A DNA stretch of 64,000 nt from Zwartia panacis. GTDB taxonomy: Bacteria > Pseudomonadota > Gammaproteobacteria > Burkholderiales > Burkholderiaceae_B. Below the pieces are notes generated by a model, which was given only the letters and a program-made list of their open reading frames with translations, ran no database searches and had not been told where the DNA came from. The position numbers and the translations under genes are program-made. The stretch covers positions 1-64,000 of the forward strand of contig NZ_JAUHHF010000006.1 of the NCBI RefSeq assembly GCF_030410395.1, written 5' to 3'. The first letter of the stretch is position 1. Each line of letters opens with the position of its first letter. Positions 34,917-38,290 of this stretch are shown in pieces.

Positions 34917-36587
34917 ATGCAATATCCCTGGCTTAGGCAATATCCTCAAGGCGTACCGGCTGAAGTGCCGGCGCATGACTATATTTCGCTGGTTGACCTG
35001 CTGAATCGGGCGTGCAAAAAATATGCCAGTCGACCCGTTGCCAGTTCCTTTGGGGTTGAGCTAAGTTTTAATGAGCTTGACCGCCAGGCGCAGGCCTTTG
35101 CGGGGTGGTTGCATACCCTTGCGTTACCAAAAGGCTCCCGCATTGCCTTGATGATGCCTAACGTTTTGCCATATCTGGTCGCGTTAGTGGGAATTTTACG
35201 TGCCGGGCATGTCATCGTGAACATCAATCCGCTCTGTACGCCCCGGGAGCTGACGGTACAACTCAATGATAGTGGTGCATGCACCATTGTGGTGCTTGAA
35301 AGTGTCGCTGGCACCCTTGAGTTGGTGACGGATTGTCCTCACTTGCAGCATCGCGTCGTGGTGCCTCCAGGTGAGATGCTAGGTCCTATCAAGGGAACCT
35401 TGATCAATTGGGGTGCAAAGTATTTGCGCAAGCTTGGACCCCAAAAACCACTGCCAGGGGCTTGCTCTTGGGCCTCGGTCATCAAGCTGGGAAGTCAGCA
35501 ACATTGGGTTGAACCTGAGCTGGATCTCGATGATCTGGCGGTTCTGCAGTACACCGGTGGCACGACAGGTCAGCCCAAAGGGGCAATGTTGACGCATGGC
35601 AATCTTGTGGCCAATGTGCTTCAGGTGGAAGCGGTTGCGCGCCCGGCATTACATGACCTGCTTGCAGGTTCGTTGACAATGCTGACCGCACTCCCGCTTT
35701 ACCATGTGTTTGCGATGACGGTTTGCGGGTTTTATGCCATGCACGCTGGGATGAAAAGCGTATTGGTGATCAATCCAAGGGATCGCGCCTCCTTGATTCA
35801 GGCGTGGCGAGAAGATCCACCCCATGTGTTTCCAGGTATCAATACGCTTTTCAATGCGCTGGCTCACGATGAGCGATTTGCGAAACTCGATTTCTCAGCT
35901 TTGCGTCTGGCTTTTGGTGGTGGGATGGCGATTCAGCGCGCAGTCGCCGAGCGCTGGTTCAAGATCACGGGACGTCCTTTGATCGAAGGTTATGGGTTAT
36001 CTGAGACCTCGCCCGTGGTCGCAGCCAATCCCACCAATGCGACAAAGTTTTCAGGAAGTATTGGTTTGCCTTTGCCCTCCACCGAAGTCTGTATCCTCGA
36101 TGAGCAGGGTCACCGCCTGGCAATCGGTCAGGAGGGAGAAATTGCCGTACGCGGACCACAGGTGATGCGGGGTTATTGGCAGGCGCCAGTCGAGACCGCG
36201 ATGGTGATGACCGATGAAGGTTTTTTACGCACTGGCGATATTGGACGAATGGATGAGCAGGGCTTTGTTTACATTGTCGATCGCAAGAAAGACATGATTC
36301 TTGTGTCTGGCTTTAACGTGTATCCAAATGAGATTGAAAGTGTGGTGTGTGAATTGCCCGGGGTGCTTGAGTGCGCCGCGGTGGGGGTGCCTGATCCACA
36401 ATCAGGCGAAGTCGTGAAGTTGTTTGTCGTGCCGCGCGATCCTCTGTTGGATGAGGCCACGATCCAAGCTTGGTGTCAGCAGCAGTTGAGCCGTTATAAG
36501 TGCCCTAAAAATATTGAATTCAGGGACGAGTTACCTAAAAGCACGGTTGGCAAGATTTTGCGCCGAGCGCTTAGGGATGCTGCATGA
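34917..36587 (+). CDS. Long-chain fatty acid:CoA ligase (FadD-like)
   Basis: 556-residue AMP-forming acyl-CoA synthetase. The AMP-binding P-loop YTGGTTGQPKGAMLTHGNL, the YGLSETSPV motif, the hinge TGDIGRMDEQGFVYIVDRKK (with TGD and DRKKD) and the C-terminal catalytic lysine in LPKSTVGKILRRALR are intact. Segments such as YPQGVPAEV and INPLCTPREL are typical of bacterial FadD. It activates fatty acids for beta-oxidation at the inner membrane. No convincing ribosome site is seen before the ATG. Its stop overlaps the mnmC-like start (ATGA). Confidence 0.92.
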   Translation: MQYPWLRQYPQGVPAEVPAHDYISLVDLLNRACKKYASRPVASSFGVELSFNELDRQAQAFAGWLHTLALPKGSRIALMMPNVLPYLVALVGILRAGHVIVNINPLCTPRELTVQLNDSGACTIVVLESVAGTLELVTDCPHLQHRVVVPPGEMLGPIKGTLINWGAKYLRKLGPQKPLPGACSWASVIKLGSQQHWVEPELDLDDLAVLQYTGGTTGQPKGAMLTHGNLVANVLQVEAVARPALHDLLAGSLTMLTALPLYHVFAMTVCGFYAMHAGMKSVLVINPRDRASLIQAWREDPPHVFPGINTLFNALAHDERFAKLDFSALRLAFGGGMAIQRAVAERWFKITGRPLIEGYGLSETSPVVAANPTNATKFSGSIGLPLPSTEVCILDEQGHRLAIGQEGEIAVRGPQVMRGYWQAPVETAMVMTDEGFLRTGDIGRMDEQGFVYIVDRKKDMILVSGFNVYPNEIESVVCELPGVLECAAVGVPDPQSGEVVKLFVVPRDPLLDEATIQAWCQQQLSRYKCPKNIEFRDELPKSTVGKILRRALRDAA

Positions 36588-38290
36588 GTGTGTATGAACG
36601 TCTTGGGTTACCGCATTCCTGGCGCTTCTTAACTCACTACACCGTGTTGCAAAGTGACTTTGAAGAAGGGGCTCCTTTTATCGGGTTGTGGGAGCGCTGG
36701 AAGCGTGATCCGGCACGTCCACAGCGTTTGCATGTGGTGGCGCTCACCCGGACTCTTATCGACGCACAGGCTTTGCGGACCAGGTTACGCGCGCAAATTT
36801 TGCCAGAGCAGCATGCGCTGGTTGAGCAGTTAGTTGCTCAGTGGCCCCTCAATCTGCCAGGGACGCATCGTCTGGATTTTGAAGGTATGGCGGTGACGTT
36901 GACGCTTGTGGTCGGTCCGGTTGAGTTGACGCTGCCACGTCTGGCTGTATGGGTAGATGCTGTTTTATTCAGCGATCTTGTCCCGCATTTGTATGGTGTG
37001 CACGACCGTGTCTGGCATGACGCCTTAGTGCGAATCGCGCGTGATCCCGCACAAGTCTTGCTTGCCCTGCCTGATGGCCAGACTATACGTGGGTGTCATG
37101 ATCAGGATCCCGCCAAGTTTGTGCGCAGCCCGACTGACAGGATGGTGCAGCAGTTCCAAGTGGATCCAAGATTAAGACATGCCTTGGTTGTAGGCGCAGG
37201 GATCGCAGGGGCGGGGATTGCCCATGCGCTTGCTCTGCGTGGTTGGCGCGTGCAGGTACTGGATGTGCGGCAACGGCGCACTCAACAGCATGGTGGGCAT
37301 CTCGCTGCCGCTCTGACTCCGATGGTGACACGTGACGATGATGTCCGGGCACGCTTGTCCCGCGCCGGCAGCTTGCGCGCGCAAGCTCGATGGTCTCATG
37401 TGGGGCAGGATGTGTTGTGGCGCTGTGGTGCCTTGCAGCTCCAGCGCGTGAGTGGACGAATTGTGGATTTGGCGGCGCTGGCAGATGGACTTGGCTTTCC
37501 CTCTGAGTGGGTGCGCTACGTCGAACCCGCGGAAGCAAGCGAGATTGCCGGCATATCTCTCAATCGGGGTGGGCTTTATTTTCCGACGGCTGCGCGCATC
37601 AGGCCCGAAACGCTCATTGACGTGCTGCTGGAGACGCCGAATATAGAGCGTCTGGATGTTCATGTGGAGCGCTTCACTCGACGCAATGGCCAATGGGAGG
37701 TGATGGATGCGAACGGGGAAGTGGTGGCTGCGGCGCCCCAATTGATTTTGGCTTGCGCTATGGGTGCTCAGGGTCTCTTACGGCGTAGCCAGCTCCTGGA
37801 GTCGGGGGAGCGGCTCGCGGGGATGCATGCGCTAGGTGGTGAAATCACGCTGCTTCCCCAGGAGGCTCTTGTTGGTGGGCCTCGTTGCATTGTGTCGGGT
37901 GACGGGTATGTTTTACCTGCTGTGCAAGGGCATTGCATCGTCGGAAGCAGCTATGTTCATGGCGCTCAGGTGATTGAACCGAGCCTAGAGGGCGCTTTGG
38001 ACAATATTGCTCGCGCCTCCAGCTTGTTGGGCCAACCCAAGCTGCCGGCGACATTGAACGATACCCTAGCTGCCAACACGGCCGGTTGGGCGGGTTGGCG
38101 CGCGGTGCTGCCGGGACGTCTGCCTGCCGTGGGTCCGTGGGTGCAGGCAGAGGGCCTGTGGGTCGCGGCGGGTTTTGCTTCGAGAGGCTTGACTTGGTCG
38201 AGTCTGGCAGGTGATCTGATCGCGGCGGCCTTGAGCGGCGAGCCCTTACCTTTGGAACGGGATATAATGGACAAAATTAGTCAAACCTAG
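36584..38290 (+). CDS. mnmC: MnmC-like tRNA-modification protein, FAD oxidoreductase half intact, methyltransferase half degraded
   Basis: 568 residues. The C-terminal part (about 198-560) is the FAD-dependent cmnm5s2U34 oxidoreductase, with dinucleotide loop VVGAGIAGAGIAHALALRG (GAGIAG at 204-209), QQHGGHLAAALTP, GLYFPTAARIRPE, and the C-terminal FASRGLTWSSLAGDLIA. The N-terminal part (1 to about 170) still aligns by eye to the MnmC methyltransferase. However, the SAM motif expected as GFGTGLNF reads DFEEGAPF (25-32), and the DGFAPAKNPxMW motif reads SDLVPHLYGVHDRVW (130-144). The methyltransferase is therefore probably inactive. Both halves normally finish mnm5s2U at tRNA position 34. Overlaps the upstream ligase gene by 4 nt. 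Confidence 0.85.
   Translation: MSVYERLGLPHSWRFLTHYTVLQSDFEEGAPFIGLWERWKRDPARPQRLHVVALTRTLIDAQALRTRLRAQILPEQHALVEQLVAQWPLNLPGTHRLDFEGMAVTLTLVVGPVELTLPRLAVWVDAVLFSDLVPHLYGVHDRVWHDALVRIARDPAQVLLALPDGQTIRGCHDQDPAKFVRSPTDRMVQQFQVDPRLRHALVVGAGIAGAGIAHALALRGWRVQVLDVRQRRTQQHGGHLAAALTPMVTRDDDVRARLSRAGSLRAQARWSHVGQDVLWRCGALQLQRVSGRIVDLAALADGLGFPSEWVRYVEPAEASEIAGISLNRGGLYFPTAARIRPETLIDVLLETPNIERLDVHVERFTRRNGQWEVMDANGEVVAAAPQLILACAMGAQGLLRRSQLLESGERLAGMHALGGEITLLPQEALVGGPRCIVSGDGYVLPAVQGHCIVGSSYVHGAQVIEPSLEGALDNIARASSLLGQPKLPATLNDTLAANTAGWAGWRAVLPGRLPAVGPWVQAEGLWVAAGFASRGLTWSSLAGDLIAAALSGEPLPLERDIMDKISQT

Follow-up and report, generated by a model that had tools for sequence, protein, structure and literature searches.

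An MnmC protein with a decayed methyltransferase half and an intact FAD half in Zwartia panacis and its genus

The window analysed here is a stretch of 64,000 nucleotides of Zwartia panacis (NZ_JAUHHF010000006.1, positions 1 to 64,000), part of contig 51 of a genome of 3.34 Mb. It carries an mnmC-like gene, an open reading frame (ORF) on the plus strand at 36584–38290 that starts with ATG and encodes a product of 568 amino acids. An earlier note, made from the sequence alone, had described the product as the tRNA modification enzyme MnmC with a dead methyltransferase half and an intact half binding flavin adenine dinucleotide (FAD), a description borne out here by curated cut-offs, residue counts and an alignment of relatives. 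The features of the locus, including the former S-adenosylmethionine (SAM) loop, are as follows.

36584..38290, plus strand: mnmC-like gene; dead methyltransferase half (residues 1–195) fused to an intact FAD half (residues 196–568)
36656..36679, plus strand: one-time SAM loop, residues 25–32, DFEEGAPF (GFGTGLNF, 66–73, in Escherichia coli), placed by alignment
36842..36916, plus strand: conserved core W87–G111 (E. coli W131–G155), which contains interface strand beta6 and is the most strongly constrained part of the half
36971..36997, plus strand: one-time catalytic motif, residues 130–138, SDLVPHLYG (DGFAPAKNP in E. coli), placed by alignment
36998..37168, plus strand: linker and C-terminal end of the dead half, under relaxed constraint and modelled with low confidence in places
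37169..38287, plus strand: FAD half, MnmC1 or MnmC(o), with GxGxxG at residues 204–209 (37193–37210)
34917..36587, plus strand: upstream acyl-CoA ligase (AMP-binding), abutting mnmC
36584..36587, plus strand: ATGA overlap of 4 nt between the mnmC start and the ligase stop codon (TGA)

In Pfam, residues 200–548 match the FAD-dependent oxidoreductase family (DAO) with 112 bits. The protein reaches the NCBIfam cut-off for MnmC1 (TIGR03197, 231 bits against 174.2) and fails those for MnmC2 (NF033855, 23.3 bits against 136) and for bifunctional MnmC (NF002480, 338 bits against 540), the latter being a model to which intact relatives score 618 and 642 bits. Passing MnmC1 and failing MnmC2 was common to all four members tested of the window's genus, here taken as the Zwartia/Sheuella/Jezberella group, and both cut-offs were passed by the two Alcaligenaceae tested outside it. 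For three further genus members NF033855 was not listed at an E value of 1e-10; Bordetella and Achromobacter reach 205–211 bits. The Pfam profile PF05430 (Methyltransf_30) is passed with 25.5 bits at a gathering score of 22, but only positions 1–55 of 124 are matched, which exclude DGFAPxxNP; this pass is a warning and no support for activity. A phmmer comparison with PDB places residues 19–116 on the methyltransferase half and residues 197–470 on the FAD half of E. coli MnmC (3ps9, E value 4.6e-24).

When aligned with E. coli MnmC using MAFFT, SGFGTGLN is found changed to SDFEEGAP and DGFAPAKNP to SDLVPHLYG, as the earlier note had read. Its statement that the domain retained its length does not hold, as about 45 N-terminal residues, including E. 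coli F24 and D26, are missing, and the loss of E101 had gone unnoticed. A hidden N-terminal extension of the gene was ruled out, because the frame is closed three codons upstream. The account of the E. coli structure in PMC3648344 assigns the SAM loop F67-G68-G70, E101 and D178, the proposed catalytic base, to the MnmC(m) site; its interface consists of strand beta6 (137–143) with 130–136, 144–147 and 163–168, and R140 pairs with Glu-628. At the SAM loop, the window protein keeps F67 and G70 only, and E101 and D178 are lost. An intact loop elsewhere in the half, which the note had said would refute its reading, was not found: residues 1–195 hold no GxGxG, and the first GxGxxG belongs to the FAD half.

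The AlphaFold2 model, built with 58 sequences including intact MnmC, has a predicted local distance difference test score (pLDDT) of 91.4 and a predicted template modelling score of 0.93. In blocks of ten residues, pLDDT is 91–97 for residues 11–130 and 59–85 for residues 131–180. Residues 1–568 of the model superpose on positions 40–652 of the E. coli chain (3ps9) with 542 residues and a Z score of 40.8; glycine oxidases rank below MnmC (Z 35, FAD half only), and Foldseek agrees. Judged by this superposition and by R140 together with an acidic residue (D or E) at position 628 in 29 of 29 genus sequences, the protein is predicted to have the two-domain fold and interface of bifunctional MnmC. 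Because the alignment contained intact MnmC, confidence in the fold of the dead half leans on intact relatives.

A homologue search covered 61 genomes, 54 of them with matches, and 32 belong to the genus, among them Zwartia vadi, Zwartia hollandica, Sheuella amnicola and Jezberella montanilacus. The group comprises freshwater Alcaligenaceae, for which the title of PMC10535154 uses the name GKS98 cluster. A decayed fusion was found in 29 of the 32 genomes (L002–L018, L020–L027, L029–L031, L033) and an intact MnmC in none. The remaining three have a FAD-only frame (G002), a frame with stops (G024, left out of the fetched sequences) and no match (G003). Near the FAD-only frame of G002 (L028/L101) no methyltransferase remnant was found. 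G002 and the G024 contig (C325) are fragmented assemblies, in which further loss and assembly error are indistinguishable. The alignment with MnmC of related genera, which the earlier note had proposed, yielded the same losses in all 29 decayed genus fusions, and for this reason chance is excluded. An assembly artefact or a single-genome oddity is ruled out by the 29 genomes. Bordetella, Achromobacter, Pigmentiphaga, Pollutimonas, Allopusillimonas and Corticimicrobacter are among the 72 rows scored as intact. A quick tree calculated from the FAD halves of 80 chosen rows, with several long branches, places the genus in one supported group (Shimodaira–Hasegawa-like approximate likelihood ratio test 100) among Alcaligenaceae with intact MnmC. 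The decay of the methyltransferase half is a genus-wide state. Outside the genus, the MnmC of Schauerella fraxinea and Achromobacter aestuarii (L096, L108) carries the changes D26E and K236G but is intact in other respects, and may represent the beginning of such a loss.

Retention was counted for columns conserved to at least 90% in 53 intact relatives and scored in the 29 decayed genus sequences, after removal of L028/L101 (no methyltransferase part), L115, L127 and identical duplicates. The interface set was taken from the E. coli structure paper, and counts inside one genus are not independent events. Mean retention is 0.85 for the interface (9 columns), 0.16 for the active site (13 columns), 0.39 for other columns (66) and 0.83 for the FAD half (105); the interface differs from the active site with p 2.6e-4 and from the other columns with p 9e-4. 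D178, E101, G66 and N185 are kept in 0 of 29 sequences, G137, H139 and R140 in 29 of 29. The FAD-site residues G271, G273, G518, R567 and G619 are likewise complete in all 29. RNA-binding K236 is lost, with K or R in one of 29.

Selection on the two halves differs along the chain. For 38 genus pairs, omega is 0.149 in the FAD half, 0.127 in columns 56–156 and 0.294 in columns 157–245. The ratio of nonsynonymous to synonymous differences (pN/pS), based on six disjoint genus pairs, is 0.177 for the FAD half, 0.153 for columns 56–128, 0.075 for columns 130–156 and 0.426 for columns 157–245; the corresponding values for ten disjoint intact pairs are 0.241, 0.200, 0.117 and 0.238. In the genus, columns 157–245 exceed the FAD half significantly (p 1e-7), whereas intact relatives show no such excess (p 0.43). 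Firm constraint is therefore seen in one part of the dead half, but not where the catalytic Asp and the RNA-binding Lys used to be: purifying selection is strong around the interface strand and relaxed in the C-terminal part of the domain.

The partners of the pathway are present. MnmE exceeds its cut-off in 31, MnmA in 30 and MnmG in 29 of the 32 genus genomes (any MnmG match in 31), and all three do so in the genome of the window. A separate MnmD in the genus was rejected, as every PF05430 match was to the decayed fusion itself, in 17 of the 32 genomes, with none in the others (controls positive in 8 of 14). MnmM was rejected likewise, PF06962 giving 0 of 32 with positive controls in Bacillus subtilis and Lactococcus lactis. 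For E. coli, the results tabulated in PMC3936742 give 85% 5-aminomethyl-2-thiouridine (nm5s2U) and no 5-methylaminomethyl-2-thiouridine (mnm5s2U) for the mutant mnmC(m)-G68D, and its competition ratio is 0.0020, against 0.0002 for the null mutant and 0.021 for the wild type. The same paper describes the separated MnmC domains as less stable than the fusion. Accumulation of nm5(s2)U at wobble position 34 (nm5(s2)U34) is reported for mutants of E. coli and B. subtilis. These E. coli data together with the gene content suggest that modification in the genus ends at nm5(s2)U34, and would explain why the oxidase has been retained along with its partner surface.

Taken together, we consider it probable (about 0.7) that the protein is an MnmC with a pseudoenzyme methyltransferase half, selected as structural partner of MnmC(o), and that modification ends at nm5(s2)U34. 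In the genus ancestor, the half would have lost its N-terminal segment, its SAM-binding and its catalytic residues, a loss read directly from the sequences. Its Rossmann core and the interface strand holding the FAD half were, by the statistics above, kept under selection, probably in the role of a structural partner. Judged by gene presence, 5-carboxymethylaminomethyluridine (cmnm5U34) or nm5U34 would be made by MnmE-MnmG and thiolated by MnmA; from its family membership, the intact FAD half is expected to convert cmnm5(s2)U to nm5(s2)U. Because no recognisable methyltransferase is left, modification would end at nm5(s2)U34, one step before the E. coli product. Among the outcomes offered by the earlier note, a stop at nm5s2U is thus the best supported, as a prediction from the presence of MnmE, MnmG and MnmA and the lack of another MnmD or of MnmM in the genus; hand-over to a separate MnmD finds no support in the genus, and action as an oxidoreductase only amounts to the first of these, provided that cmnm5(s2)U has remained the substrate.

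Several observations weigh against a selected structural partner. Other lineages have FAD-only forms of MnmC, G002 of the genus yielded a FAD frame only, and PMC3936742 describes MnmC(o) of E. coli as active on its own; the partner domain is therefore not always needed. Residues outside the listed interface (W77, W80, L95, H96, T149–T151 and G155) are retained too, and interface residue G146 is kept in only 21% of genus sequences. The core of the fold is held as well, so that maintenance of the fold and of the interface are not fully separable.

The situation beyond the genus shows what may replace a lost half. PF05430 matches were found in 142 of 250 genomes of the order Burkholderiales. Decayed fusions also occur in nine other families and in one more genus of the window's family (L040, L133–L138, L140, L141, L144–L154), and FAD-only forms in several families (L051, L142, L143, L155–L159); these rows were chosen for odd-looking scores and so say nothing about frequency. 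On the tree, 10 transitions between the intact and the non-intact state are required, at least five of which are forced by its starred branches. Among 14 decayed rows outside the genus and outside family f44, G137 is kept in 14, H139 in 13, R140 in 13 and D178 in 4; in family f44, R140 is lost in 6 of 6 and position 628 is acidic in 2 of 6. One genome (G154) carries a decayed fusion (L138) and an intact stand-alone MnmD-like protein of 261 amino acids (L139) with all 12 scored active-site residues, and hand-over to a separate MnmD seems to occur there. MnmM (L166–L172) was found in 7 of the 250 genomes, none with a PF05430 match; five belong to family f44, whose N-terminal half is decayed, and two to the window's own family. 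Because they fall into few clades, these are not seven events. In six of the seven, the fetched MnmC-type FAD protein (L145–L149, L142) has no working methyltransferase half, and it looks like MnmM replaced MnmC(m) in these carriers. The MnmM paper (PMC9976899) gives mnmM and mnmC as mutually exclusive and the MnmC(o)-like partner as unknown; in the present genomes MnmM is accompanied by a protein of the MnmC(o) type, which would give it such a partner.

These replacements, which leave MnmM or a stand-alone MnmD beside decayed or FAD-only MnmC, lend some weight to the view that in the genus an unrecognised methyltransferase of another family makes mnm5(s2)U, the end product being unchanged and the MnmC2 half redundant. 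We regard this as unlikely, though it is the foremost alternative, as neither known replacement is found in the 32 genus genomes with positive controls. It is less likely still that the dead half took on a new role, such as binding tRNA or another ligand or acting in regulation, and does not serve as a scaffold alone. Its N-terminal part is constrained as strongly as the FAD half and the model core is well formed; however, only three positions of the half (E. coli 104, 133 and 154) are fixed in the genus to a residue rare in intact relatives, which would hardly make a new site, the retained residues are concentrated in the former interface and the core, and K236 is lost. That the FAD half acts on another substrate, outside tRNA modification, is very improbable: FAD halves of this type resemble glycine and sarcosine oxidases in fold, but the MnmC1 scores of the genus (202–231 bits) match those of intact relatives (207–245 bits), ThiO is far from its cut-off (57 against 251 bits), the conserved FAD-half columns are retained at the level given above, and MnmE and MnmG are kept.

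A methyltransferase still active through a rebuilt site is hardly credible. F67, G68 and G70 are kept in some members (e.g. Zwartia vadi, L053) and the model superposes on SAM-bound MnmC (3sgl), but D178, E101, G66, N185 and the N-terminal segment with D26 and F24 are lost in all 29, the C-terminal part is relaxed, and G68D alone abolishes mnm5s2U in E. coli according to the data in PMC3936742. Equally remote is a gene decaying as a whole, for which stops in frame in one and no match in another of the 32 genomes might speak, since the other frames are open and pN/pS is low in both FAD half and core.

The flanking genes bear on the origin of the truncation. The distance from the end of the upstream acyl-CoA ligase to the mnmC frame is 0.9–1.15 kb at 35 of 50 intact loci. 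In the two of these loci that were read, from Achromobacter and Bordetella (L083, L076), an opposite-strand ORF lies between the two genes (L083 3841–4809; L076 3815–4705); that of L083, the one tested, encodes an inositol monophosphatase family protein. In the genus, the ligase runs directly into mnmC in 15 of 29 loci (−12 to +79 bases of the frame start), lies about 4 kb beyond mnmC in nine, and was not found in five. Minus-strand loci (L008, L018; repeats of L057, L060) gave no ligase distance. Half of the genus lacks the intervening gene and has ligase and mnmC overlapping, an arrangement that has the appearance of a scar. One deletion removing the middle gene and the mnmC start would be the simplest account for the 15 abutting loci; the remaining genus loci must have been rearranged later or have lost the N-terminus otherwise.

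The protein is best described as a variant of a known enzyme and not as a new type, an MnmC of which only the oxidase would still work and whose pseudo-methyltransferase is retained by selection as a partner, fixed in the genus. It shares domain order, fold, FAD-site residues and G137, H139 and R140 with the MnmC of E. coli and Yersinia pestis (3ps9, 3awi, 3pvc, 3sgl), but lacks their N-terminal segment (F24, D26), SAM loop, E101, D178 and DGFAPxxNP. Like E. coli mnmC(m)-G68D, it would combine a predicted MnmC(o) activity with a dead MnmC(m) in one chain, and several genus members have Asp at aligned position 68; whereas G68D is a laboratory mutant with one change, the loss in the genus is natural, total and fixed. 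The FAD-only MnmC1 proteins (L051, L142, L155–L158) have the same FAD half and likewise no expected methyltransferase activity, but dropped the other half, of which the genus keeps core and interface under selection. Stand-alone MnmC2/MnmD (Aquifex DUF752 type) and MnmM (YtqB) are the known alternatives for the missing methylation, neither of which was found in the genus. Literature searches confined to open PubMed Central gave no description of such a decayed MnmC.

For annotation, a "bifunctional MnmC" label or a passing PF05430 score can cover a dead methyltransferase. The finding also bears on why the two MnmC activities are fused, as the chemistry of one half was released while the residues holding the halves together were kept by selection; this retention agrees with the report that the E. 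coli domains are less stable when separated. It bears further on the need for the last methylation of the wobble uridine, since a genus with members in culture apparently manages without any enzyme recognisable for this step. As a tentative proposal, with somewhat less than even odds, a free-living genus may naturally end at nm5(s2)U34 through an MnmC with a selected pseudo-domain; comparable losses would have happened repeatedly in the order, apparently made good by MnmD or MnmM in some cases but not in others, and the exposed primary amine could be a handle for further modification in this clade.

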